Of a stretch of 64,000 bases of DNA, positions 49,024-64,000 are shown piece after piece; position 1 is the first letter of the stretch, and each line of letters opens with the position of its first letter. The notes beneath the pieces were generated by a model. The model made no database searches. It saw nothing but the letters and a program-made list of their open reading frames with translations, and was not told the DNA's origin. The position numbers were made by a program, and so were the translations under genes. The stretch is from Streptomonospora mangrovi. GTDB taxonomy: Bacteria > Actinomycetota > Actinomycetes > Streptosporangiales > Streptosporangiaceae. Location: assembly GCF_027604915.1 (NCBI RefSeq), contig NZ_JAJAQC010000003.1:1-64000 (forward strand), written 5' to 3'.

Positions 49024-50196
49024 GTGTACCTGGATCACGCCGCCACCACCGCCGTCCGTCCCGAGGCAGTCGCGGACATGACGGAGGAGTTCGGCCACCT
49101 CGGAAACCCCTCCTCGCTGCACGGCGCCGGCCGCCGCGCCCGCCGCGCCGTCGAGGAGGCGCGCGAGAGCGTCGCCGACTCCCTCGACTGCACCCCCAAC
49201 GAGGTGGTGTTCACCTCCGGCGGCACCGAGGCCGACAACCTCGCCGTCAAGGGCCTCTACTGGTGGCGCCACCAGTCCTCGCCGCGCCGCCGGCGCATCC
49301 TCGTCAGCGCGGTGGAGCACCACGCGGCGCTGGACCCCGCCCGGTGGATGGCCGACCACCAGGGGGCCGTCTACGAGGAGATCCCGGTCGACCGCCACGG
49401 CCGCGTGGCGCCCGAGGCGCTGCGCGCCGCCGTGGAGCGCGATCCCGACGACGTCGCGCTGGTGTCGGTGATGTGGGCCAACAACGAGGTCGGCACCGTC
49501 CAGCCGGTGGCCGAGCTGGCGGCGGTGGCCCGCGAGTACCAGATCCCCTTCCACACCGACGCCGTGCAGGCGGTGGGCTCCCAGCCGGTGTCCTTCGCCG
49601 AGTCCGGGGTCTCCGCGCTGACCGTCAGCGCGCACAAGATCGGCGGCCCGGTGGGCGCGGGCGCCCTGCTGCTGGCGCGCGGCGTGGAGCCGGCCCCGGT
49701 GCTGCACGGCGGCGGCCAGGAGCGCGAGATCCGCTCGGGCACCCTCATGACCCCGCTGCTGCGCGGGTTCGCCACCGCGCTGCGGCTGGCGGTCGCCGAA
49801 CGCGCCGCCCACGCCCGCCACCTGGCCGAGTTGCGCGACTCCCTGGTGGCGGCGGTGCGGGAGCGGGTGCCCGACGCCGTCCTCAACGGCCACCCGACCG
49901 AGCGCCTCCCCGGGATCGCGCACCTGTCCTTCCCCGGCTGCGAGGGCGACGCCCTGCTGATGCTGCTGGACGCGCGCGGCATCGCGTGCTCCACCGGGTC
50001 GGCGTGCTCGGCGGGGGTGGCCCAGGCCAGCCACGTGCTGCTGGCCATGGGCGCCGACCCCGAGACCGCGCGCAGCTCGCTGCGGTTCTCGCTGGGGCGC
50101 GACTCCGGCGCGGCCGACGTGGCGGCGCTGGGCGAGGCCATCGGCCCGGTGGTCGAGCGCGCGCGGGCCGCCCGCCGCAAGCGCCGCGCCGCCTGA
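49021..50196 (+). CDS. Cysteine desulfurase (IscS/NifS family)
   Basis: The 391-residue PLP enzyme takes sulfur from cysteine to a persulfide. It starts MVYLDHAATTAVRPEAV, has the PLP Lys in TVSAHKIGGPVGAG and the active-site Cys in STGSACSAG. The start at ATG 49021 matches the family N-terminus. mnmA follows downstream on the same strand after an oppositely oriented gene, so it probably provides sulfur for tRNA 2-thiolation as in many actinobacteria. Confidence 0.95.
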   Translation: MVYLDHAATTAVRPEAVADMTEEFGHLGNPSSLHGAGRRARRAVEEARESVADSLDCTPNEVVFTSGGTEADNLAVKGLYWWRHQSSPRRRRILVSAVEHHAALDPARWMADHQGAVYEEIPVDRHGRVAPEALRAAVERDPDDVALVSVMWANNEVGTVQPVAELAAVAREYQIPFHTDAVQAVGSQPVSFAESGVSALTVSAHKIGGPVGAGALLLARGVEPAPVLHGGGQEREIRSGTLMTPLLRGFATALRLAVAERAAHARHLAELRDSLVAAVRERVPDAVLNGHPTERLPGIAHLSFPGCEGDALLMLLDARGIACSTGSACSAGVAQASHVLLAMGADPETARSSLRFSLGRDSGAADVAALGEAIGPVVERARAARRKRRAA

Positions 50197-50289
50197 GGCG
50201 GGCGGCTGAGGCCAACCGGGGGCTGAGGCCCGCAGCGAGGGCTGAGGGGCCGCCCCGGGGACCGGGTACCGGGGACGGGGTACGGGGGC

Positions 50290-50311
50290 GCCGGGCGGGT
50301 GCCCGCCCGGC
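50290..50311. terminator. Hairpin between cysteine desulfurase and DUF695-like gene
   Basis: A perfect 9-bp stem with a GTGC loop sits between two convergent genes. Confidence 0.55.
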
Positions 50312-50323
50312 TCAGCCGCCCGC

Positions 50324-51493
50324 TCAGCGCTCCAACTGCCCCCGGATGGGCCGCAGCAGTTGCTCGATGGTCTGCCACTCGGGGTCGAGCCGGCTCTGCA
50401 CCACCGCCCGGCCCTCGCCCCAGTCGCGCACGGCCGCCTCGAAGTCGGCCATCACCCCGGAGTCGGGGTCGATGTAGAAGTAGAACTGCCGCTGGCCGCC
50501 CGCCGTCTGCTGGGCCAGCAGCGCGCCGTTGTCGCCCAGCAGCGTGCGCAGCCCGGTGGCGAACTCCTCCAGCGCGGTGGTGGAGGGCTCGGTGGGCAGC
50601 CGGTCGCCGTCGCTGGCGGCGTAGGGCAGCACCACGTGGGCGTAGAGGGTGAGCGCCGGGAAGTCGCGGCGGTGCAGGGGGTGGCGCACCGCGATCTCGA
50701 TGACGCCGCGCAGCGGCACCCGGCCCTGGAGGGTCACCCAGCCGCCCAGCGCCCCGGAGAGCTGGCGCACCACGGAGGGGATGGAGGAGGGCGGCAGCGG
50801 GTCCAGCGGCTTCTCCACCAGCGGCTCGACCTTGCCCACCCAGCGCACGTAGTCGTCCTCGCCCAGCGCCAGCATCACGACGTGGTCGGCCAGGCCGGAG
50901 CGGGTGTCCTCGGACACGAACATGAAGTCGGGGTGGTAGACCCCCACCTCGACCTTGCTGCGCCGCTGGTCCACGCGCATGGAAACGCTGCTGTGCGCGA
51001 GGTCGAACTCGTGGTCGTCCCAGGTCAGGGGTCGCGCCAGGCGCCCGGGGTCGGCCGGGAGCGCGGGGAAGAACCGCCAGCCGGGCTCCTCGGGGGCCGC
51101 CCGCGCCCAGCGCTCGGTCAGCACCCGCGCCTGGTCGTCGGGGCCGGCGGTGAGCACCAGCGCGTGCGCCGACCCGCTCTCCAGCGAGGCCAGGGGGTCG
51201 TCCAGCGCCGCCATGCGCGCCATCAGCCGCCCGGGGTCGGTGTCGTCGTCGAGGCCGAGGTCGCCGAGGTCGGAGTCGGCGTCGCGCGGGGCCGCCGAGA
51301 CCTCCCAGTTGAGGTCGGGGTGGATCCGGGCCACCGCCTGGGACACCCGCTCGGCGACGTCCTCGGGCGGCGGGGTGCCGTTGTCGAGGGAGGCCGCCAG
51401 GGCGGTCCGGAACTCCGGCCACTGGCGCCAGAACTCGTCCACGGCGACGGCGGATTCGGACTGCTGCGAGCGGCGGCGACGGAACAGAGCCAT
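50324..51493 (-). CDS. Conserved protein of unknown function (DUF695-like)
   Basis: The 389-residue acidic, soluble protein starts MALFRRRRSQQSES and contains DEFWRQWPEF, PDLNWEVSAAP and near the end RQFYFYIDPDSGVMADF. This pattern resembles DUF695-type proteins, whose role is unknown; the family assignment is tentative. No signal peptide or membrane helix is seen. It lies on the opposite strand between the cysteine desulfurase and mnmA genes. Confidence 0.8.
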   Translation of the reverse strand: MALFRRRRSQQSESAVAVDEFWRQWPEFRTALAASLDNGTPPPEDVAERVSQAVARIHPDLNWEVSAAPRDADSDLGDLGLDDDTDPGRLMARMAALDDPLASLESGSAHALVLTAGPDDQARVLTERWARAAPEEPGWRFFPALPADPGRLARPLTWDDHEFDLAHSSVSMRVDQRRSKVEVGVYHPDFMFVSEDTRSGLADHVVMLALGEDDYVRWVGKVEPLVEKPLDPLPPSSIPSVVRQLSGALGGWVTLQGRVPLRGVIEIAVRHPLHRRDFPALTLYAHVVLPYAASDGDRLPTEPSTTALEEFATGLRTLLGDNGALLAQQTAGGQRQFYFYIDPDSGVMADFEAAVRDWGEGRAVVQSRLDPEWQTIEQLLRPIRGQLER

Positions 51494-51696
51494 GGCCCTG
51501 ATTTTCGCAGAACGCCACGGCGGGCGCGCCAGAAGGTCCCCGCGCGGCGCGGGGGCGGGCCGGATGGGACGGGCGCCGGTCCGGGCGGGCGGCGGTTTTG
51601 GGTGCGTGGGGGTTCGGGCGCACGCGGTTCGGGGGCGCGCCCGTCCGCGCGCGCCGGTCCGGCGGGCACCCCGTCGAGGCGGTCCCCGCCAGGACA

Positions 51697-51714
51697 TAGG
51701 CTGGAGGCGCTATG
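51697..51714 (+). promoter_or_regulatory. -10 box just before mnmA
   Basis: TAGGCT (51697-51702) ends 9 nt before ATG 51712. GGAGG directly follows it and may still serve as a very short leader's ribosome site. Confidence 0.5.
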
Positions 51715-52794
51715 ACTCTGCGCGTACTGGCCGCCATGTCCGGCGGCGTCGACTCCGCCGTGGCCGCCGCCCGGGCCGCCGAGGCCGGCCACGACGTCAC
51801 AGGCGTCCACCTGGCCCTTTCCAAGAACCCGCAGTCCTACCGCAGCGGCGCGCGCGGGTGCTGCACGGTCGAGGACTCCCGCGACGCCCGCCGCGCCGCC
51901 GACGTCATCGGCATCCCCTTCTACGTGTGGGACATGGCCGAGGAGTTCGACCGCGACGTGGTGAGCGACTTCGTCGCCGAGTACGCGGCGGGCCGCACCC
52001 CCAACCCGTGCCTGCGCTGCAACGAGAAGATCAAGTTCGCGGCGGTGCTGGACCGCGCGATCGCGCTGGGCTTTGACGCGGTGTGCACCGGCCACCACGT
52101 CCGCAAGGTCGACGGCCGCCTGCGGCGCAGCGTCGACCTCGACAAGGACCAGTCCTACGTGCTGGGCGTGCTCACCCGCGAGCAGGTGGCCCACGCCATG
52201 TTCCCGCTGGGCGACTGCACCAAGGCCGAGGTCCGGGCCGAGGCGGAGCGGCGCGGGCTGGCGGTGGCCGACAAGCCCGACAGCCACGACATCTGCTTCA
52301 TCGCCGACGGCGACACCGCCGGGTTCCTCAACGACCGGCTGGGCGGCGAGCCCGGCCCGATCAAGGACGAGTCCGGCGCGGTGCTGGGCACCCACCAGGG
52401 CGCGCACACGTTCACGGTGGGCCAGCGCAAGGGCCTCAACCTGGGGGGCGCCGTGGAGCGCCGCTACGTGCTGTCCATCGAGCCGGTGAACAACACGGTC
52501 ACGGTGGGGCCGCGCGACTCCCTGAAGGTGGACGAGATCACCGCCGAGCGCCCGGTGTGGAGCGGCTGCGCGCCGCTGACCGAGCCCACCGCCTGCCAGG
52601 TGCAGTTGCGCGCCCACGGCGAGGTGTACGGCTGCCGCGCGGTGGAGCGCGACGGCCGCCTGGTGATCGAACTGGACGAGCCCGCGACGGGCGTCGCGGC
52701 AGGCCAGGCCGCCGTGCTCTACGACGGCGACACGGTGTTGGGATCGGGCACCATCGCCGCCACCGCCCGCCGCGAACACGGCACCCGGGTCTAG
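51712..52794 (+). CDS. mnmA: tRNA-specific 2-thiouridylase
   Basis: MnmA activates U34 of Lys, Glu and Gln tRNAs with ATP and inserts sulfur. The 360-residue protein has the PP-loop [11 protein letters not shown], the catalytic Cys pair in [12 protein letters not shown] and [12 protein letters not shown], and a C-terminal beta domain. Length is normal. The sulfur donor is likely the cysteine desulfurase encoded upstream. Confidence 0.96.
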
Positions 52795-52799
52795 CCGCC

Positions 52800-53095
52800 G
52801 GGTGAAGCGATCACCGGCCCGCGCCTCAGTGGTTGGTGAAGGGGACGGGGCGCCGAGGGCGGCGGATGGCTCGGGTGCGCGGTGATCGGTTCCCGGGGCG
52901 GATGGCTTAGGTCGCAGCGGGGCAGCGAAGGCGGCAGTGCCTTGGGCGCGCGGTCAACGGGTCTCGGAGCGGGTGGCCGGTGGTGGTGACGGGGCGGCGA
53001 CGGCGGCGGGTGGTCCGGGGCCTGCGGTGATCGGTTCGCGCGGCCGGTGGCTGATGTCGGCGACGGTGCGCCGAGGGTGCCGGGCGCCCGGGGGC
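52800..53095. repeat. Degenerate ~72-bp tandem repeats
   Basis: Four loosely similar units begin near 52805, 52878, 52949 and 53023. The best pair shares GCGGTGATCGGTTC (52881 and 53027) followed by alternating similar blocks (GG-GGC-GG-TGGCT, GTCG, CGG). The block has no convincing gene and looks like an old, decayed minisatellite. Confidence 0.5.
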
Positions 53096-53179
53096 GGGCG
53101 GCGTTGCCGCCATTCCAACCGCGAGCGCACGATGATCCGCAGCGGCCCGCTTCTCCAACCGGACAAAGGGGCCTTGGTG

Positions 53180-53335
53180 TCAATGGGTTGTTGCGACTAG
53201 CAGTTCGTCCAGCTTCTCGGCCGGGGTGCGATACCCCAGCGTCTTGCGCGGGCGGGTGTTGAGCAGCCCCTCCACCCGGTCCAACTCAGCCCTCTCCACC
53301 CGGGTGAAGTCGGTGACCCCCTTGGGGAACGGTGG
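53180..53335 (-). pseudogene. IS30-family transposase C-terminal remnant
   Basis: The frame ending at 53180 reads PFPKGVTDFTRVERAELDR followed by VEGLLNTRPRKTLGYRTPAE, the end of IS30-family integrase-type transposases (PKGTDF... NxRPRKTLGxxTPAE). Only about 50 C-terminal residues remain; the sequence further upstream no longer matches, and the DDE catalytic residues are mostly gone. No inverted repeats were found. It marks an old insertion between mnmA and the DedA gene. Confidence 0.78.
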
Positions 53336-53598
53336 CCTGGCCACCCGCTCTGAGTACCGACCGTCGCGGACCCGGGTCTGCGCCTTCCCCTGGTGCCCCG
53401 TCGCCACCCTCGCCCCACAGCGGGGCTGAGCGGTGTCGTCGCGCCCCGGCCTGCCGGTCTCTCCTTCTCTCTCCTTCTCCCTCCCTCGGCCGCCTCGCCT
53501 GCCTCGGCGTCGGGTCGGCCACAATCGGACGACGTCGACCTCCGTACAGGTTAGGTAAGGCATAGCATGGTTTCCTGATCCGGGTACGGAGGGGTGCG
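53336..53598. other. Gene-free stretch upstream of the DedA gene
   Basis: The left part is probably decayed insertion sequence. The right end (53541-53570) is AT-richer and holds TTAGGTAAGGC (53551-53561), similar to half an IdeR/DtxR iron box, and TAGCAT (53563-53568), a possible -10 for the DedA gene. Confidence 0.4.
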
Positions 53599-54135
53599 AT
53601 GGAGTACGAGTTCCTGAACGGCCAGCCCTTCTGGATCGTCTACGCCGCGCTCTTCGTCATCGTCTTCGCCCGCACCCAGGCCACGTACTGGATCGGCCGG
53701 GGGCTGGGCGCGGGGCTGCACCGCTCGCGCGCCGGGCGGCGGCTCGGCGACCGCCTCGCGCGCGCCGAGGCGCTGATCAACCGGTTCGGCCCGCCCGTGG
53801 TCACCGTCTCCTATGCCACCGTGGGTTTCCAGACCGCCATCCACCTGGCGGCCGGTGCCATGCGCATGTCGTTCGTGCGCTACCTGGTGGCCATGCTGCC
53901 CGGCTGCGCGGGCTGGGCGGCCATCTACAGCCTCGGCGGCCTGGCCGTCCTCGCGGTGTGGTGGGACCTCTTCCTGCGCTCGCCCGAACTGGCGGTGGCC
54001 GCCGGTGCGGTGCTGGTCGTCGCGGTGGTCGCGGGGGTACTGGTGGCGCGGCGCCGCCGCGCCCGGGCCGGGGCCGCGTCCGCCGAGGACTCGACGGACC
54101 AGGCCGACACGCCTTCGGCGTCCTCCGCCGCCTGA
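53599..54135 (+). CDS. DedA-family membrane protein
   Basis: The 178-residue protein has about four membrane helices and the DedA (VTT) signature FARTQATYWIGRGLG and RRLGDRLARAEALINRFGPPVVTVSYATVGFQTAIHLAAGAMRM. DedA proteins act as lipid scramblases/transporters, for example of undecaprenyl phosphate or phospholipids; which lipid is unknown here. It is shorter than most (usually ~200-220). The C-terminal 35 residues are charged/Ser-rich. A weak ribosome site (GGAGGGG) precedes the ATG. Confidence 0.88.
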   Translation: MEYEFLNGQPFWIVYAALFVIVFARTQATYWIGRGLGAGLHRSRAGRRLGDRLARAEALINRFGPPVVTVSYATVGFQTAIHLAAGAMRMSFVRYLVAMLPGCAGWAAIYSLGGLAVLAVWWDLFLRSPELAVAAGAVLVVAVVAGVLVARRRRARAGAASAEDSTDQADTPSASSAA

Positions 54136-54451
54136 CCCACGGCTCGCCCGTATCCGGCTGCCCGGTCGCCCCTCTGCGGCACGGGCCTGACCTGCGGCCT
54201 CCCGCGCCGCCACCCGAGCCCCCGCTCCGTGCCCCGTTCCCGCACGGCCCCACCGCCACCCCCTTTGCCGCCGATTCCGCTTTCCCGGGGCGGTCCCTGT
54301 CCACAGATAATGGGTAATACATACGATATTGACTCACTATCATCCGCTGTATATACAGTAGCTGCGCCCGGGACACCCCGGCCGCGCCCCTCTCGTGCCC
54401 TCGGGTCTCGCGCCCTCGGGTCGTCCCACTCCGGAAGGCAGCGCAGCAGAC
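54136..54451. other. Promoter region of the MMPL transporter gene
   Basis: The 316-bp interval contains an AT-rich island (54301-54362) with TTGACT at 54329-54334 and TATACA at 54352-54357, 17 nt apart, a near-perfect vegetative promoter that overlaps a CTGTATATACAG palindrome. The leader to the gene is about 85-90 nt. No gene is seen. Confidence 0.6.
54329..54358 (+). promoter_or_regulatory. Vegetative promoter overlapped by a 12-bp palindrome
   Basis: TTGACT-N17-TATACA lies inside the AT-rich island. The perfect palindrome CTGTATATACAG (54347-54358) covers the -10 box, the ideal position for a repressor. No regulator gene is adjacent. Confidence 0.65.
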
Positions 54452-56713
54452 GTGTCCACCACCCGACCCCCCGTCACCACCGACCGCCCCCCGCCCGGCC
54501 CTCCGCCCAGCCCCCCGTCCGGCCTGCGGCCCTCCGCGCTGCGGCGGCTGGGCCGGTTCACCGCACGCCGATCCGGGACCGTGCTGCTGGCCTCGGCGGT
54601 GCTCACGCTCGTCGCCCTGGTCGCGGCCGCCGGGATCCTCGACCGGCTCGTGCTCAGCCGGTTCGTCAGCCCCGGCTCGGAGTCGCTGCGCGCCGCCGAG
54701 GTCCTGGAGGAGGAGTTCGGCACCGGCACCCAGGGCGTGCTGCTGCTGGTCACCGCCGCCGAGGGCACCGTCGACTCCCCGGATGTACGCGAGGCCGGGC
54801 TCGCCGTGGAGCGCGCGTTCGCCGCCGAGGAGGGCGTGGCCGAGACCGCCTCCTACTGGTCGCGCGGGGAGTCGCCGTCGATGCGCGGCGCCGACGGCAC
54901 CCAGGCGCTGATCGTCGCCCGGCTTTCGGGCGACGTCACCGAGGCGCGCGCCCGGCTGGCCGGGCTGTCCGCCGAGTACACCCTGGAGCGGGCCGACATC
55001 CGGGTGGCCGTGGGCGGCGGAGACGAGGTCTTCCGCCAGGCCGCCGAGCAGGCGCGGGCCGACTTCCTCACCGCCGAGGCGATCGTGCTGCCGATGGTCC
55101 TGGTCCTTCTGTGGGTGATCTACCGCCGCCTGCCCGCCGCCGCGCTCACCCTGGGCATGGGCCTGTTCTCCGTGGTGGCCACCCTGGCGCTGCTGCGGGG
55201 GGTCGCCGCCGCCACCGAGGTCTCCACCTTCGCCGCCAACCTCGCGCTGGTGATGGGCCTGGGCCTGGGCGTGGACTACTGCCTGTTCGTCATCAACCGC
55301 TTCCGCGAGGAACTCGACGCGGGCCGCACCGTGCCCGAGGCGGTGGAGCAGGCGGTGGCCACCGCCGGGCGCACCGTCGCCTTCAGCGGCGTGACCGTGG
55401 CGGTGTCGCTGCTGTGCATGCTGCTGTTCCCCTTCCCGTTCCTGCGCTCCTTCGGCTACGCCGGCGCGGCGGTCGTGGCCACCTCCGTCTTCGCCGCGCT
55501 GGTGATCATGCCCGCCGCCCTGGCACGGCTGGGCGCCCGCGTGCGGGCACGCAGCCTGGACGGCCGGGGGAGCGGGGCGCGGTGGTGGCACTCCACCGCC
55601 GTGCGGATGATGCGCCGCCCCCTCCTCTACGGGATCCCCGCGCTGGCGGTGCTGCTGGTGCTGGCCGCGCCCGTCCTCAACCTGTCCTTCGGCCTGCCCG
55701 ACGACCGCGTGCTGCCGCCGGGCACCTCCAGCCGCGAGGTGCAGGACCAGATCCGCGCCAACTTCCCCCAGGAGGAGATGGACGCCGTCCAGATCGTCGC
55801 CGAGGACCTGCCCGGCACCGCCGCCAACGCCGAGGCCATCGCCGGCTACGCCGCCGAGCTGTCGCGGATCGAGGGGATCGCCCAGGTCGACGCGCTCACC
55901 GGCGTCTACGTCGAGGGCGAGCGGGTGGGCGAGCCCGGCGCCGCCGCGCGGCGGTTCGCCTCTCCTGAGGCCACCTGGTTCTCGGCGGTCCCGGCCACCG
56001 CCGCGCTGGAGGGCGTGGGCTCGGTCGACGCGCTGCTGGCCGAGGTGCGCGCGGTCGACCCGCCCGGCCCCGGCCCCGTCCTGGTGGGCGGCTACCCCGC
56101 CGAGCTGAACGACTTCCGCACCGGGCTGGTCGAGGCCGTCCCGCTGGTGTTCGGCCTGATCCTCGCCGTCACCTTCGCCGTCCTGTTCCTGATGACCGGC
56201 AGCCTGCTGCTGCCGCTCAAGGCCATCGCGCTCAACGTGCTGAGCATGGCGGTCATGTTCGGCGCCCTGGTGTGGGTGTTCCAGGAGGGCAACCTCGCCG
56301 GCGCGCTGGGGATCACCGCCATCGGCACCCTGGAGCCCACCTTCCCGCTGCTGATGTTCTGCGTCGCCTTCGGGCTGTCCATGGACTACGAGGTGTTCAT
56401 GCTGGCCCGCATCAAGGAGGAGTACGACCGCACCGGCGACAACACCGCCGCCGTGGCCGCCGGGCTGGAGCGCAGCGGCCCGCTGATCACCGCCGCCGCC
56501 GTCATCCTGGCCGCGTCCTTCGCCGCCTACGCCACCTCGGGGGTGATGTACCTGGTCATGCTGGGCCTGGGCATGGCGCTGGTCATCGTGGTCGACGCCA
56601 CCCTGATCCGGGCCGTACTGGTGCCGGTGCTGATGCGCCTGGCCGGGCGCGCCAACTGGTGGGCGCCGCGCCCGCTGCGGCGCCTGCACGCACGGTTCGG
56701 CATCGCCGAGTGA
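54452..56713 (+). CDS. MMPL-family (RND superfamily) membrane transporter
   Basis: The 753-residue protein has the MMPL plan: one helix, an extracellular domain, five helices, a second extracellular domain and five more helices. Conserved spots include GLGLGVDYCLFVINRFREEL and its C-terminal counterpart CVAFGLSMDYEVFMLARIKEEY, which carry the proton-relay Asp residues. It may export a lipid or drug. GTG 54452 follows GGAAGG at a somewhat long distance. A Pro-rich start of ~30 residues precedes helix 1. Confidence 0.93.
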   Translation: MSTTRPPVTTDRPPPGPPPSPPSGLRPSALRRLGRFTARRSGTVLLASAVLTLVALVAAAGILDRLVLSRFVSPGSESLRAAEVLEEEFGTGTQGVLLLVTAAEGTVDSPDVREAGLAVERAFAAEEGVAETASYWSRGESPSMRGADGTQALIVARLSGDVTEARARLAGLSAEYTLERADIRVAVGGGDEVFRQAAEQARADFLTAEAIVLPMVLVLLWVIYRRLPAAALTLGMGLFSVVATLALLRGVAAATEVSTFAANLALVMGLGLGVDYCLFVINRFREELDAGRTVPEAVEQAVATAGRTVAFSGVTVAVSLLCMLLFPFPFLRSFGYAGAAVVATSVFAALVIMPAALARLGARVRARSLDGRGSGARWWHSTAVRMMRRPLLYGIPALAVLLVLAAPVLNLSFGLPDDRVLPPGTSSREVQDQIRANFPQEEMDAVQIVAEDLPGTAANAEAIAGYAAELSRIEGIAQVDALTGVYVEGERVGEPGAAARRFASPEATWFSAVPATAALEGVGSVDALLAEVRAVDPPGPGPVLVGGYPAELNDFRTGLVEAVPLVFGLILAVTFAVLFLMTGSLLLPLKAIALNVLSMAVMFGALVWVFQEGNLAGALGITAIGTLEPTFPLLMFCVAFGLSMDYEVFMLARIKEEYDRTGDNTAAVAAGLERSGPLITAAAVILAASFAAYATSGVMYLVMLGLGMALVIVVDATLIRAVLVPVLMRLAGRANWWAPRPLRRLHARFGIAE

Positions 56714-56715
56714 GC

Positions 56716-56752
56716 GCGCGCGGCCCCGCCGGCGTGCGGCGGGGCCGCGCGC
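56716..56752 (+). terminator. Strong hairpin after the MMPL gene
   Basis: A perfect 15-bp GC stem with a 7-nt loop starts 3 nt after the stop codon. Confidence 0.72.
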
Positions 56753-56792
56753 CCGCCCGCCTCGGCGGTGCGCGGCCGGGCGCCGCGCCCTC

Positions 56793-56806
56793 TAACCTGG
56801 TGACCC

Positions 56807-56809
<3 letters not shown>
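56793..56809 (+). promoter_or_regulatory. -10 box of leaderless MetE-like gene
   Basis: TAACCT (56793-56798) ends 8 nt before GTG 56807; no ribosome site is present, so the message is probably leaderless. Confidence 0.58.
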
Positions 56810-60027
<3,218 letters not shown>

Positions 60028-60388
60028 GTGTGCTCAGAGGGGATGCGGCCGGGCGCGGCCGACCGTGCCACCGAATGTTGTTCGCGCAGGCAGTAGCGTC
60101 TACGATGCGCGATCACTAGGCTACCTGTCGCAGTATTTCAGGTCGAATGGGGCGATCGGCCCAGGTGATGTCCGCTTCACCGAAAGTCCCCGTTCGGCGA
60201 CACCTGGTGATGAAGCGTCGTAAGCTGAAACGGTAGTCGGTCGGTCGTCCGCCCCTTCGCGGAGCCATCCACACCGGTCTTGGGGGTGACCGCAGCAGTG
60301 AACGTCAACGACCGCCCCGCCGCAGGCGCCCACCCTCACGGCGGCACCGGGACCGGTCGGGGCACCATGAAACCCCCAGAGGACGTCT
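60028..60388. other. Long structured leader region before the GGDEF-EAL gene
   Basis: Possible promoters are TTGTTC-N17-TACGAT (60078-60106) and TAGGCT (60117-60122). The predicted transcripts would have 260-280-nt leaders containing an RNA element with crossing 7-bp helices at 60161-60217. A short GTG frame (60298-60402) overlaps the gene start and could be an upstream reading frame. Confidence 0.5.
60161..60217 (+). ncRNA. Candidate structured RNA element (pseudoknot or switch)
   Basis: CCAGGTG (60161-60167) pairs with CACCTGG (60201-60207), and CGCTTCA (60173-60179) pairs with TGAAGCG (60211-60217). These helices cross, so they form a pseudoknot or exclude one another. A small CCGAA/TTCGG stem (60180-60184 with 60193-60197) sits between. 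No known riboswitch class is recognised. Confidence 0.4.
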
Positions 60389-62467
60389 ATGTTGGATCCC
60401 ACTAGCACCCGGGACCTCGGTCCCCGGGTCGGGACGCCGCTGTGGCTCTACCTCGCCGGCATCACCGTGGCCGGGGGCGCGCTCCTCGGCGTCGCGCTCT
60501 TCGTCTACGGCGTGGACCGGTTGCAGGTCCTCGGCGCCTCGCCGCTGATCTGGCTCATGCTGTGCATGGTCGTCATCGGCGAACTCCGGCCGATCGCCTC
60601 GCCCAGCACCCCCGCCGACAACGGCGCGCCCACCTCGCTGCCGTTCTCCTTCGCGCTGCTGCTGTCCTTCGGCCTGCCGGTGGCCGGCCTGGTGCAGGCC
60701 ACCGCCACCGCCATCGCGGGCGTGGCCCGCGGCCACGCCCCCCACCGCGTCCTGTTCAACATCGCCCAGTACGCCCTCAGCTTCGGCGCGGCCGACGCCG
60801 TGCTGCGCCTCATCGTCCCCGGCAGCGCGGTCCACCCCTGGGTGGCCAAGGGCCCCGACCTCGCCGCGGTCGCCGCCGCCGGCGCCGTCTACTACGTCTG
60901 CAACCTCGTGCTGGTGGAGTCGGCGGTGGCCATGCACGAGCGCTCCCCGCTGGGCGCCGTGTTGCGCAAGGACCTCGGCCAGCGGCTGTTCGTCCACGGG
61001 GTGCTGCTCAGCCTGGCCCCGCTGGTGTCGGTGGCCATGGTCCACGAGGTCTGGCTGGTGCCGCTGTTCTTCTTCCCGCTGGCCGCGCTCTACACCAGCG
61101 CCACCCTGTCGATGAAGCGCGAGCACCAGGCCAACCACGACGAGCTGACCGGCCTGGCCAACCGCAAGCTGCTCATCCTGCGCACCCAGGAGGCCCTCAG
61201 CGAGGCCCAGTTGCGCAAGCACCGCGTGGGGCTGCTGCTGCTCGACCTCGACCGGTTCAAGGAGGTCAACGACACCCTGGGCCACCCCACCGGCGACCGC
61301 CTCCTCCAGACCGTGGCCCGCCGCCTCACCCACAGCGTGCGCCCCGGCGACCTCGTGGCCCGCCTGGGCGGCGACGAGTTCGCCGTGCTGCTGCCCCAGG
61401 TCCGCGACCCCGCCTCGGCCCGCGAGGTCGCCACCCGCCTGCGGGTCTCCCTGGCCGAGCCCATGCGCCTGGACGGCATGGACTTCGACCTTGAGGCCAG
61501 CGTGGGCATCGCCCTCTACCCCAACCACGCCCCCGACTTCGAGCTGCTGATGCAGCGCGCCGACGTCGCCATGTACGTCGCCAAGGAGCACCGCACCGGG
61601 GTGGAGCTGTACGAGCAGCACAAGGACCGCAACTCCACCGCCCGGCTCAGCCTGTTCGGCGAGCTGCGCCGCGCCCTGGTCGAGGACGAGCTGGAGATGT
61701 TCTACCAGCCCAAGGTCCGCCTGGCCGACCACCGCACCGTAGGCCTGGAGGCGCTGGTGCGCTGGCGCCACCCCCAGCGCGGCGTGCTGCCGCCCGAGGA
61801 CTTCGTGCCGCTGGTCGAGCAGTCCTACCTGATGCGCAGCTTCACCCACGAGGTCCTGGAGCGCACCCTGCCCCAGGTCGCCCGCTGGTGGGCCGAGGGC
61901 ATCGAACTCCCCGTGGCCGTGAACCTCTCCGCCCGCGAACTCCTCGACCCCACCCTGCCCGACATCGTCGCCGCCGCGCTGCGCCGCCACGGGGTGGCGC
62001 CCCAGGCGCTGCGGCTGGACATCAGCGAGCGCGTCATGGTCGCCGAGGCCGACGGTGTCACCCCCACCATCCTCGCGCTGGCCGACCTCGGGATCGCCCT
62101 GGCCCTGGACGACTTCGGCACCGGCTACTTCACCCTGGCCCGGCTGGGCGGGCTGCCCGTCGAGGAGATCAAGATCGACGAGTCGTTCGTGCGGCGCAGC
62201 CTCGCCGACCCCGACGGCCACCTGATCGTCCGCTCGGCCGTCGACCTCGTGGGCACCCTGGGCATGCGCGCCGTCGCCGAGGGCGTGGAGTCCGAGCGCG
62301 TGGCCGAGGACATGCGCGCCATGGGCTGCTACGCCGCCCAGGGCCGCCACTTCGCCTCGCCCCTGGAGGCCCACCAGGTCGCCCCCTGGCTCGCCGAGCA
62401 CGGCGGCCCCTACACCACCCTGGGCGGGGCCTCCGGCGAACCCACCGAGCACAGCCGCACCCGGTAA
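60389..62467 (+). CDS. Membrane-bound cyclic di-GMP enzyme with GGDEF and EAL domains
   Basis: The 692-residue protein starts with about six membrane helices (residues ~18-245). The GGDEF domain has an intact GGDEF motif and an RPGD inhibitory site five residues before it. The EAL domain has LEALVRW, KPKVRL-type loops, DDFGTGYF, IKID and AVAEGVES, so the metal- and substrate-binding residues appear complete. It could both make and degrade c-di-GMP, a second messenger that controls development in actinobacteria. AGAGGA stands 5 nt before ATG 60389. Confidence 0.94.
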   Translation: MLDPTSTRDLGPRVGTPLWLYLAGITVAGGALLGVALFVYGVDRLQVLGASPLIWLMLCMVVIGELRPIASPSTPADNGAPTSLPFSFALLLSFGLPVAGLVQATATAIAGVARGHAPHRVLFNIAQYALSFGAADAVLRLIVPGSAVHPWVAKGPDLAAVAAAGAVYYVCNLVLVESAVAMHERSPLGAVLRKDLGQRLFVHGVLLSLAPLVSVAMVHEVWLVPLFFFPLAALYTSATLSMKREHQANHDELTGLANRKLLILRTQEALSEAQLRKHRVGLLLLDLDRFKEVNDTLGHPTGDRLLQTVARRLTHSVRPGDLVARLGGDEFAVLLPQVRDPASAREVATRLRVSLAEPMRLDGMDFDLEASVGIALYPNHAPDFELLMQRADVAMYVAKEHRTGVELYEQHKDRNSTARLSLFGELRRALVEDELEMFYQPKVRLADHRTVGLEALVRWRHPQRGVLPPEDFVPLVEQSYLMRSFTHEVLERTLPQVARWWAEGIELPVAVNLSARELLDPTLPDIVAAALRRHGVAPQALRLDISERVMVAEADGVTPTILALADLGIALALDDFGTGYFTLARLGGLPVEEIKIDESFVRRSLADPDGHLIVRSAVDLVGTLGMRAVAEGVESERVAEDMRAMGCYAAQGRHFASPLEAHQVAPWLAEHGGPYTTLGGASGEPTEHSRTR

Positions 62468-62513
62468 GCCCGCCCGCCGCCGCCGACCGCCCCAGCCGCC
62501 GCCCGCGCGGCAA

Positions 62514-62519
62514 TAGGAT
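62514..62519 (+). promoter_or_regulatory. -10 box of gatC operon
   Basis: TAGGAT lies 108 nt before the gatC ATG in the only AT-richer spot of the intergenic region. No clear -35 is seen. Confidence 0.45.
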
Positions 62520-62627
62520 TGAGCTGTCCCGATCCGCCGAGCCGCCGCCCGCGCGGCGCCGCCGCCCCAGGCGGGTGCCTTGGCGGGGCGGGCACGTCCG
62601 ATTCCGCCGAAGAAACGGTTGCCATTC

Positions 62628-62927
62628 ATGTCCGCCATCACCCGCGATGAGGTCGCGCACCTCGCCCGGTTGTCGCGGCTGGCGCTGCACGAGGACGAGC
62701 TGGACCAGCTCGCCGCCCAGCTTGACGAGATCATCTCGGCTGTGGCCAAGGTGCAGGAGGTCGCCCAGGGCGACATCCCGCCCACCTCGCACGCCCTTCC
62801 GCTGACCAACGTCTACCGCCCCGACGAGACGCACCAGGGGCTCACCCCCGACCAGGCGCTGGCGGGCGCGCCCGCGGTGGAGGACCAGCGCTTCCGCGTG
62901 CCGCAGATCCTGGGGGAGGAAGAGTGA
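62628..62927 (+). CDS. gatC: Asp-tRNA(Asn)/Glu-tRNA(Gln) amidotransferase subunit C
   Basis: The 99-residue GatC ([39 protein letters not shown]) stabilises the GatCAB complex that converts Glu-tRNA(Gln) and Asp-tRNA(Asn) to their amides. The stop overlaps the gatA GTG (GTGA), so the two are co-translated. Confidence 0.96.
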
Positions 62928-64000
62928 CCGCGAGCGAGATCGTGCGGATGACCGCGGCCGAGCTGGGCGCGGCCGTGCGCTCCGGCCAGACCTCCGCCGA
63001 AGAGGCCACCGGCGCCTACCTCGACCGGGTGGCCGAGGTCGACGGCCAGGTCAACGCGTTCCTGCACGTGGACCGCGACACCGCCCTGGCGCAGGCCCGC
63101 GCGGTCGACGCCCGGCTGGCCGCCGGCGAGGACCCCGGCCCGCTGGCGGGCGTGCCGGTGGCGCACAAGGACGTCTTCACCACCGCCGACATGCCCACCA
63201 CCGCCGCCTCCAGGATCCTGGAGGGCTGGCGCCCGCCCTACGACGCCACCGTCACCGCGCGGCTGCGCCAGGCCGGCATGGTGGTGCTGGGCAAGACCAA
63301 CATGGACGAGTTCGCCATGGGCTCCTCCACCGAGAACTCCGCCTACGGCGTCACCCGCAACCCCTGGGACCTCGACCGCATCCCCGGCGGGTCCTCCGGC
63401 GGGTCCTCGGCGGCCGTCGCCGCGTTCGAGGCGCCGCTGGCCACCGGCACCGACACCGGCGGGTCCATCCGCCAGCCGGCGGCCGTGTGCGGTCTGGTGG
63501 GCGCCAAGCCCACCTACGGCGGGTCCTCCCGCTACGGGCTGATCGCCTTCGCGTCGTCGCTGGACACCCCCGGCCCGCTGGCCCGCAACGTGCTCGACGC
63601 CGCGCTGCTGCACGAGGCGTTCTCCGGCCACGACCCCCGCGACTCCACCTCCGTCGACGCGCCCGTGCCGCCGGTGGTCGAGGCCGCCCGGCGCGCCGAC
63701 GTCGAGGGCCTGCGCGTGGGCGTGGTCAAGGAGCTGGGCGGCGAGGGCTACCAGCCCGGCGTGCTGCGCCGGTTCACCGAGGCGGTGGAGCTGCTGGAGT
63801 CGCTGGGCGCCAAGGTGGTCGAGGTCTCCTGCCCCAGCTTCGACGCCGCGCTGGCCGCCTACTACCTGATCGCGCCCAGCGAGTGCTCCTCCAACCTCGC
63901 CCGGTTCGACGCCATGCGCTACGGCCTGCGGGTGGGCGACGACGGCACCCGCAGCGCCGAGGAGGTCATGTCGCTGACCCGCGCCGAGGGCTTCGGCCCC
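62924..64000 (+). CDS. gatA: Asp-tRNA(Asn)/Glu-tRNA(Gln) amidotransferase subunit A (partial, cut by window end)
   Basis: The first 359 residues of GatA are visible and the frame is still open at the window end. The amidase signature is present: catalytic Lys in [20 protein letters not shown] and the nucleophile Ser region [10 protein letters not shown]. It releases ammonia from glutamine for transfer to mischarged tRNA. gatB would be expected next. Confidence 0.96.

Follow-up and report, generated by a model that had tools for sequence, protein, structure and literature searches.

Putative promoter with BldD-box-like sites and a covarying leader RNA upstream of an rmdB-like gene in Streptomonospora mangrovi and its relatives

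In Streptomonospora mangrovi, the gene for a GGDEF-EAL protein resembling RmdB is probably preceded by two layers of control, a promoter with tandem operators and a structured 5′ untranslated region (5′ UTR). Both are located in a stretch of 64,000 nucleotides (contig NZ_JAJAQC010000003.1, positions 1 to 64,000 of the forward strand), referred to here as the window. The first layer is a 52-bp block that, judged from its sequence elements, reads as a promoter. For the second layer, the comparison of ortholog leaders supports the presence of a conserved and covarying RNA in the 5′ UTR of rmdB (46 of 69 leaders), and we propose that this leader may serve as a translation-control element of rmdB. 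The features discussed are compiled in Table 1.

Table 1. Features upstream of and at the rmdB-like gene; positions refer to the window
Feature	Position	Strand	Remarks
5′ block	60101..60165	+	conservation limited to 19 close genomes; TAC-N5-GC repeated directly at 60101 and 60122
Putative promoter block, 52 bp	60176..60227	+	conserved, gap-free in 69 orthologs; no fold; frames interrupted by stops
BldD-box-like site A, TCACCGAAAGTCC	60177..60189	+	5 of 6 defined positions
-35-like element GCGACA	60197..60202	+	identical in 61/69; 18 bp before the -10 element
BldD-box-like site B, CGACACCTGGTGA	60198..60210	+	5 of 6 in 69/69; overlaps the -35-like element
Putative -10 element TAAGCT	60221..60226	+	TAnnnT in 69/69
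RNA hairpin P1	60275..60292	+	CGGTC 60275-60279, loop TTGGGGGT 60280-60287, GACCG 60288-60292
RNA hairpin P2	60314..60363	+	base GCCCC/GGGGC, from the predicted fold of the window
C-run ACCCCCA	60372..60378	+	immediate 5′ neighbor of the Shine-Dalgarno sequence; partner of TGGGGGT 60281-60287 in the P1 loop
Shine-Dalgarno sequence GAGGA	60379..60383	+	Shine-Dalgarno-like sequence in 62/65 orthologs with placed start (ATG)
GGDEF-EAL gene, rmdB ortholog-like	60389..62467	+	692 aa; Pfam EAL 211 bits, GGDEF 164 bits

The rmdB Locus and Its Orthologs

The genes flanking rmdB, named from their translations, are what we take to be ligA upstream and gatC and gatA downstream. An upstream ligA is present at 68 of the 69 loci that carry the 52-bp block (core loci), and at the remaining locus no match to ligA was found in the stretch that had been fetched. 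The gene for RmdB itself is also present in 29 of the 30 genomes without the block that were examined. In five genomes of family f20, which by inference are Streptomyces-like, RmdB shares 41-44% identity with the protein from the window and ligA is the neighbor at four of the five loci, as it is in the window, whereas the rmdB leaders differ, a BldD-box-like site with 5 of 6 positions being absent from four of them and occurring once in the fifth. RmdB from Streptomyces (vnz25525/SCO5495) is described as a membrane c-di-GMP phosphodiesterase with 6TM-GGDEF-EAL organization (PMC6205966) that is required for timely development (PMC6205966, PMC13232838); in Streptomyces, sporulation on time depends on it.

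With start codons placed by alignment, the 52-bp block lies 36 to 186 nt from the start of rmdB, one outlier being 785 nt away (the start of L047 is misplaced). The distance of 785 nt between promoter block and rmdB is seen at locus L067 (genome G023) and is far above that of every other ortholog.

A Conserved Putative Promoter Block Precedes rmdB

The 52-bp block occurs between ligA and the GGDEF-EAL gene in 69 of 341 genomes of the family, where it comprises 62 distinct sequences with 17 invariant columns. A 70th genome, G089, was excluded from this count, as its match is only weak and lies away from rmdB. When 394 genomes from across the class were sampled, matches outside the family were weak and partial. 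A coding function of the block was rejected, because internal in-frame stops interrupt the three frames in 25, 28, and 68 of the 69 sequences.

The 3′ end of the block has the form CGTAnGnTG, and the inner bases of its TAnnnT vary, as they do in a -10 element: among the 69 sequences TAAGCT is found 43 times, TAAGGT 16 times, TAAGAT five times, TACGCT three times, and TAGGGT twice. The upstream GCGACA agrees with TTGACA at four of six positions, the spacer being 18 bp long. A generic promoter scan reported no promoter at this place. If the block acts as a promoter, as its elements suggest, transcripts of rmdB are predicted to start near position 60233.

Part of this arrangement seems to extend beyond the genomes that carry the block. 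At 21 of 29 rmdB loci without it, a TNAC-N5-GT is kept whose distance from the end of TAnnnT is fixed at 51 nt, and all 21 are among the 23 loci without the block that belong to the GTDB family of the window. In the sister genera, 10 of 23 loci have their aligned ATG 38 nt downstream of the base with which the -10 element begins, and 4 more of the 23 have an in-frame ATG at this position; little besides a promoter and a Shine-Dalgarno sequence can be accommodated at such a distance.

BldD-Box-Like Sites and Their Candidate Regulator

The BldD box is given as TNAC(N5)GTNA (PMC4151990), and its binding by BldD is aided by c-di-GMP. Two sites in the 52-bp block resemble this box. Site A matches 5 of the 6 defined positions in 67 of the 69 genomes and 4 of 6 in the other two, and the AC-N5-GT dyads of sites A and B are 21 bp apart. 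Neither site reaches 6 of 6 in any of the 69 genomes, one outer position being off at each site in every genome (column 14 is never A and column 23 is never T). Among 256 dyads, AC-N5-GT is the only one that occurs twice on invariant columns. When letters were permuted, it did so in 4 of 20,000 trials, and when letters and positions were permuted, in 0 of 20,000, figures that are optimistic as the tests followed the inspection of several motif families.

A gene for BldD is present in 31 of 31 genomes, as judged by matches to PF21179 in the genome of the window (129.6 bits) and in 30 of 30 relatives. RGD and RQED in the translation of the former presumably constitute the c-di-GMP-binding motif. 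An exact box is encountered upstream of bldD itself in 31 of 31 genomes. At these loci (L131, positions 1097-1109, and 30 others) the exact box, TCACTGTnnGTAA, is located just after a -10-like sequence, and in 22 of the 31 a second site with 5 of 6 positions precedes it by about 74 bp.

From the sequences, BldD control of the rmdB promoter is plausible. In EMSA, BldD failed to bind the rmdB promoter of Streptomyces ghanaensis (PMC7026642), which speaks against BldD acting at rmdB in general. This negative result also fits the Streptomyces-like leaders, four out of five of which lack such sites, so that BldD control in the lineage of the window, if real, would be a lineage-specific rewiring. 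A literature search yielded no account of BldD controlling rmdB in the lineage of the window. Site B is absent from the sister genera. At their loci (L134-L154), a conserved palindrome, TTTCGCGAAG or a near-match to it, replaces site B in the promoter block and is possibly the site of another regulator.

Conserved Hairpins in the Leader RNA

The longer ortholog leaders share a hairpin whose loop is rich in G, together with a C-run just before the Shine-Dalgarno sequence. For a closer comparison, 46 of the 69 leaders were aligned by sequence only (alignment A7), and 23 were omitted as short, odd, or misplaced. The latter comprise L047, in which the rmdB start is misplaced, L054 and L059 with leaders of about 37 nt, 12 leaders of about 61-115 nt (L060, L063, L068-L071, L074, L075, L111, L115, L125, and L128), L055, L057, and L067 with 786 nt, and five regarded as odd (L110, L114, L118, L126, and L127). 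As a scripted scan found no G-loop hairpin in 11 of the 23 omitted leaders, the leader RNA is not universal even in genomes that carry the 52-bp block.

Across the 46 aligned leaders, the six pairs of P1 and the five pairs of the P2 base are standard pairs in 89.5% of cells. A two-sided change is found in 8 of these 11 pairs, whereas shuffling leaves 2.7 such pairs (0 of 500). The covariation score amounts to 0.231, compared to 0.148 after shuffling and at most 0.103 when the structure was slid along the alignment. P1 alone is paired in 94.2% of cells, with a two-sided change in four of its six pairs. On the rmdB tree, both hairpins together account for 15 two-sided changes, 19 one-sided changes, and 20 breaks, 7 of the breaks being in P1 and 13 in P2. 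When the 3′ columns were re-partnered, the mean was 1.7 two-sided changes and the maximum 10, and 0 of 500 trials reached 15. The structure was picked by eye from the same sequences in which changes were then counted, which flatters the result somewhat; the independent compensations far exceed what choosing a structure by eye can yield. RNAalifold recovers almost nothing (-1.4) from the alignment of the whole 5′ UTR because the middle of the UTR is too variable.

The window's P1 has five of the six pairs counted in its relatives. The P2 base in other genera is GGAGC/GCTCC and covaries. The window's own P2 columns are unpaired in the alignment, and its P2, which comes from the predicted fold, would be homologous to that of the other genera by position only. 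In the 5′ UTR of L053, an unrelated hairpin, TTTTCCGG...CCGGAAAA, replaces P1, and the C-run before the Shine-Dalgarno sequence is kept.

Pairing of the P1 Loop With the C-Run Beside the Shine-Dalgarno Sequence

The G-rich loop of P1 and the C-run occur in several matching versions, i.e., TGGGGGT/ACCCCCA in the window and GGGGTGA/TCACCCC, GGGATGGT/ACCATCCC, and TGAGGGG/CCCCTCA elsewhere. The mean pairing score of loop and C-run is 17.64, compared to 16.24 when partners are exchanged (0 of 3000 trials as high; 33 distinct pairs, relatedness being ignored), and an earlier run with a narrower Shine-Dalgarno pattern and 22 distinct pairs gave 38 of 2000. For 33 of 45 leaders, this pairing is unmatched by any other 11-mer within the leader. 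In some lineages only the loop takes part, and the pairing can coexist with P1 in a true pseudoknot; in other lineages, the pairing borrows bases of the 3′ arm of P1 and competes with P1. When the window is folded from 60263 to 60391 in nested fashion, the long-range pairing is selected, with GGAC of the Shine-Dalgarno region covered as well, and among 45 leaders folded in this way the long-range pairing is favored in 26 and P1 in 8.

Distribution of the Leader RNA and Comparison With Known Systems

Searches against Rfam returned only a meaningless microRNA match elsewhere (E 4.9) for positions 50000-64000 of the window at E up to 5, and no match for 20 relatives at E up to 1; no c-di-GMP riboswitch family was matched in either scan. 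A model of the leader, R3, finds one strong copy of 68.1 bits in the genome of the window, the next match having 21.2 bits (E 0.87). In 10 chosen genomes, it finds one copy in each of six, all of the lineage with the 52-bp block, and none in the four from outside that lineage, and in the 11 genomes searched it is found only before rmdB. Applied to 12 of the omitted leaders, R3 matches L047 (92.6 bits), L057, L069, L110, L118, and L126 at E 0.01, and gives no match for L055, L060, L063, L068, L114, and L127. It also matches 10 of 19 named relatives and 0 of 4 sister-genus loci. As R3 includes the -10 element and the Shine-Dalgarno sequence, a match to R3 alone is no proof of the hairpins. In a literature search at the level of listings, covering orphan leader RNAs and rmdB leaders, nothing was recognized as this element.

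The expression platforms of preQ1-II and SAM-II riboswitches employ loop pairing at or near the Shine-Dalgarno sequence. The rmdB leader resembles such leader pseudoknots in that a hairpin loop pairs at or beside the Shine-Dalgarno sequence, but the partner is the flanking C-run and not the Shine-Dalgarno sequence itself, a second hairpin lies in between, and there is no known aptamer. The riboswitches c-di-GMP-I and c-di-GMP-II accompany c-di-GMP genes in other bacteria; the association with a c-di-GMP gene is similar in the rmdB leader, which, however, has no Rfam match to them. With regard to the promoter, BldD-box-like sites before a c-di-GMP enzyme gene are likewise described for the BldD-controlled cdgA, cdgB, cdgC, and cdgE promoters of Streptomyces (PMC7374567, PMC7911125). 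In contrast to these, the gene in the window is the phosphodiesterase gene rmdB and not a cyclase gene, and its two sites, each matching 5 of 6 positions, are 21 bp apart.

Proposed Mechanism and Alternative Explanations

In the mechanism that we infer, the tandem AC-N5-GT operators would most likely be bound by BldD together with c-di-GMP and, as site B overlaps the -35-like element, repression would be the simplest outcome. Low phosphodiesterase levels might then keep c-di-GMP high until development begins. Transcripts starting at about 60233 would carry a 5′ UTR with P1, P2, and the C-run that touches the Shine-Dalgarno sequence. The G-rich loop of P1 would pair with the C-run, either in a pseudoknot or, as predicted for the window, in an alternative to P1 that covers part of the Shine-Dalgarno region. 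This pairing would be expected to lower translation, and release of the G-strand to raise it. A second actinomycete lineage appears to have rewired the production of RmdB, with BldD-like sites in the promoter and a leader RNA at the ribosome-binding site; the RNA part, if true, would be a new RNA family.

One alternative accepts the 52-bp block as a promoter and assigns both AC-N5-GT sites to a regulator other than BldD, a possibility to be taken seriously, if tentatively. The outer position that deviates in every genome would fit it, since the box upstream of bldD shows no such deviation, and so would the WhiA-type GACAC in 31 and GACAG in 32 of the 69 genomes, counts on which a WhiA site as the sole cause was itself rejected. 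On the other hand, the dyad with its N5 spacing is the very core of the BldD box, and a primary BldD site of a Streptomyces cyclase promoter, TCTACGCTCCGTAAC, which was tested by EMSA, departs from the box just as site B does, with C in place of T (PMC7374567).

The remaining alternatives concern the RNA. It might be that pairing of the G-run with the C-run merely tunes basal translation or RNA stability and that no switch exists, which we regard as somewhat unlikely. The simple architecture would suit such a role, as would the nested foldings, by which the balance between long-range pairing and P1 differs from species to species, but both alternative pairings are kept with compensation, and this exceeds the needs of a fixed brake. 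More ambitious, and unlikely on present evidence, is the idea of a new rmdB-specific family of translational leaders, in actinomycetes of the Streptomonospora/Nocardiopsis type, that flips between P1 and the loop-to-Shine-Dalgarno pairing on a cellular signal, while the promoter is read by BldD-c-di-GMP. If true, a c-di-GMP phosphodiesterase would be under the control of its own substrate, or of a related signal, at two levels, and such a circuit seems to be missing from rmdB of Streptomyces. A ligand-binding riboswitch made up of P1, P2, and the G/C pairing, with c-di-GMP, for example, as its ligand, is in our view very doubtful. The position ahead of a c-di-GMP enzyme gene and the two partly exclusive pairings, both of which are kept, would be in line with a riboswitch; however, the leader matches none of the c-di-GMP families in Rfam, few invariant unpaired bases suggest a binding pocket, and the element precedes only rmdB in the genomes searched with R3.

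Crossing Helices Upstream of the Predicted Transcript Start

The initial annotation of this region had drawn attention to two interleaved 7-bp complementary pairs between 60161 and 60217, which might form a pseudoknot or an alternating switch in a long regulatory leader. The pairs exist as described (CCAGGTG 60161-60167 with CACCTGG 60201-60207, and CGCTTCA 60173-60179 with TGAAGCG 60211-60217), together with the small stem CCGAA/TTCGG between them, and no other 7-bp Watson-Crick helices with a span of up to 60 cross one another in the whole leader. Dinucleotide shuffling of the leader yields at least one such crossing pair in 98 of 3000 trials; among stretches of 288 nt taken from the 64 kb, 87 of 443 contain one or more. 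The crossing pairs are real, yet unremarkable and unconserved as RNA. Folding of the leader gives a z of -1.55 relative to shuffles, 14 of 200 of which fold equally well or better. For a conserved stretch of 136 nt, z is -4.06 in the window and on average -1.0 over 19 relatives; of the 13 relatives from other genera, 8 have a z of at least -0.03.

Compensatory changes in 19 relatives do not bear the helices out. Their cells are paired in 74.1% of cases, compared to 73.6% after shuffling (73.1% and 72.8%, respectively, if the small stem is included), and their covariation measures are equalled by 84 to 333 of 500 shuffles, the number of cells with two-sided change by 39 of 500. With L047 left out, the tree of the close genomes (18 of 19) has one two-sided change, 13 one-sided changes, 18 breaks, and 18 restorations. 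A pseudoknot made of these helices was rejected, as there is no excess of pairing over shuffles and a single two-sided change is set against 18 breaks. The energy of the consensus fold weakens as sequences are added, from -18.1 kcal/mol (11 sequences) to -6.1 kcal/mol (19 sequences), and the 3′ core alone has a consensus of -2.2 kcal/mol in 26 sequences, with zero two-sided pairs. In a DNA search of 60 relatives, about the first 130 bases of 60101-60388 are conserved and the remainder much less so; a model of the conserved stretch matches once in each of 48 genomes out of the 341 of the family, in all 48 between ligA and the GGDEF-EAL gene. With the -10 element where it is, the predicted transcript start falls downstream of 60217, and the 3′ arms of the helices read as promoter-like DNA within the 52-bp block. 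What stands of the proposed regulatory leader is a conserved structured RNA further 3′ (60275-60391), whereas the helices originally named are not conserved. A pseudoknot that looks perfect in a single sequence can be promoter DNA, with the real RNA about 60 bases away.

It is highly improbable that transcription from a promoter further upstream (TACGAT 60101-60106) yields a long leader in which the crossing helices are nonetheless conserved as a pseudoknot or switch. In support of this explanation, the arms are perfect in the window, the letters CAGG and GGTGA are largely conserved, a -10-like TACnAT is present in 18 of 19 close genomes, and an end-to-end helix, 60101-60108/60215-60222, has a covariation score that beats column shuffles (0 of 500). 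In the same helix, however, the pairs with two-sided change are equalled by 273 of 500 shuffles and three changes from G-C to C-G are confined to three species of one genus; moreover, the first 5′ arm, in a set of 29 sequences inspected by eye, is unrecognizable beyond the 19 close ones, and the pairing frequencies, the breaks, the loss of consensus energy, and the folding z outside the genus argue against it as well. The long rod of the minimum-energy fold of the window was likewise discarded, its support on testing being weak.

A short frame upstream of rmdB, also annotated initially, exists from the ATG at 60367 to a stop at 60405, and sits within a 41-codon TTG frame (60280-60405) that overlaps the ATG of the gene at 60389. 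It is not conserved: an overlapping ATG or GTG frame within 30 nt was found in 7 of 65 orthologs, on which count a conserved upstream frame was rejected, and in the nearest relative of the window its ATG is CTG.

Within the 5′ block, the direct repeat TAC-N5-GC (60101-60131) has a spacing of 21 bp, equal to that of sites A and B, and occupies near-invariant columns of the 19 close genomes; when letters were permuted, AC-N5-G occurred twice at 21 bp in 7 of 20,000 trials. A hairpin at 60127-60156 (GTCGC...GCGAT, with inner ATTY/GAAT) pairs in 16 to 19 of the 19 genomes and shows one compensatory change (L044); 50 of 500 shuffles do as well as this hairpin, which could be an operator or a piece of a longer minor transcript.
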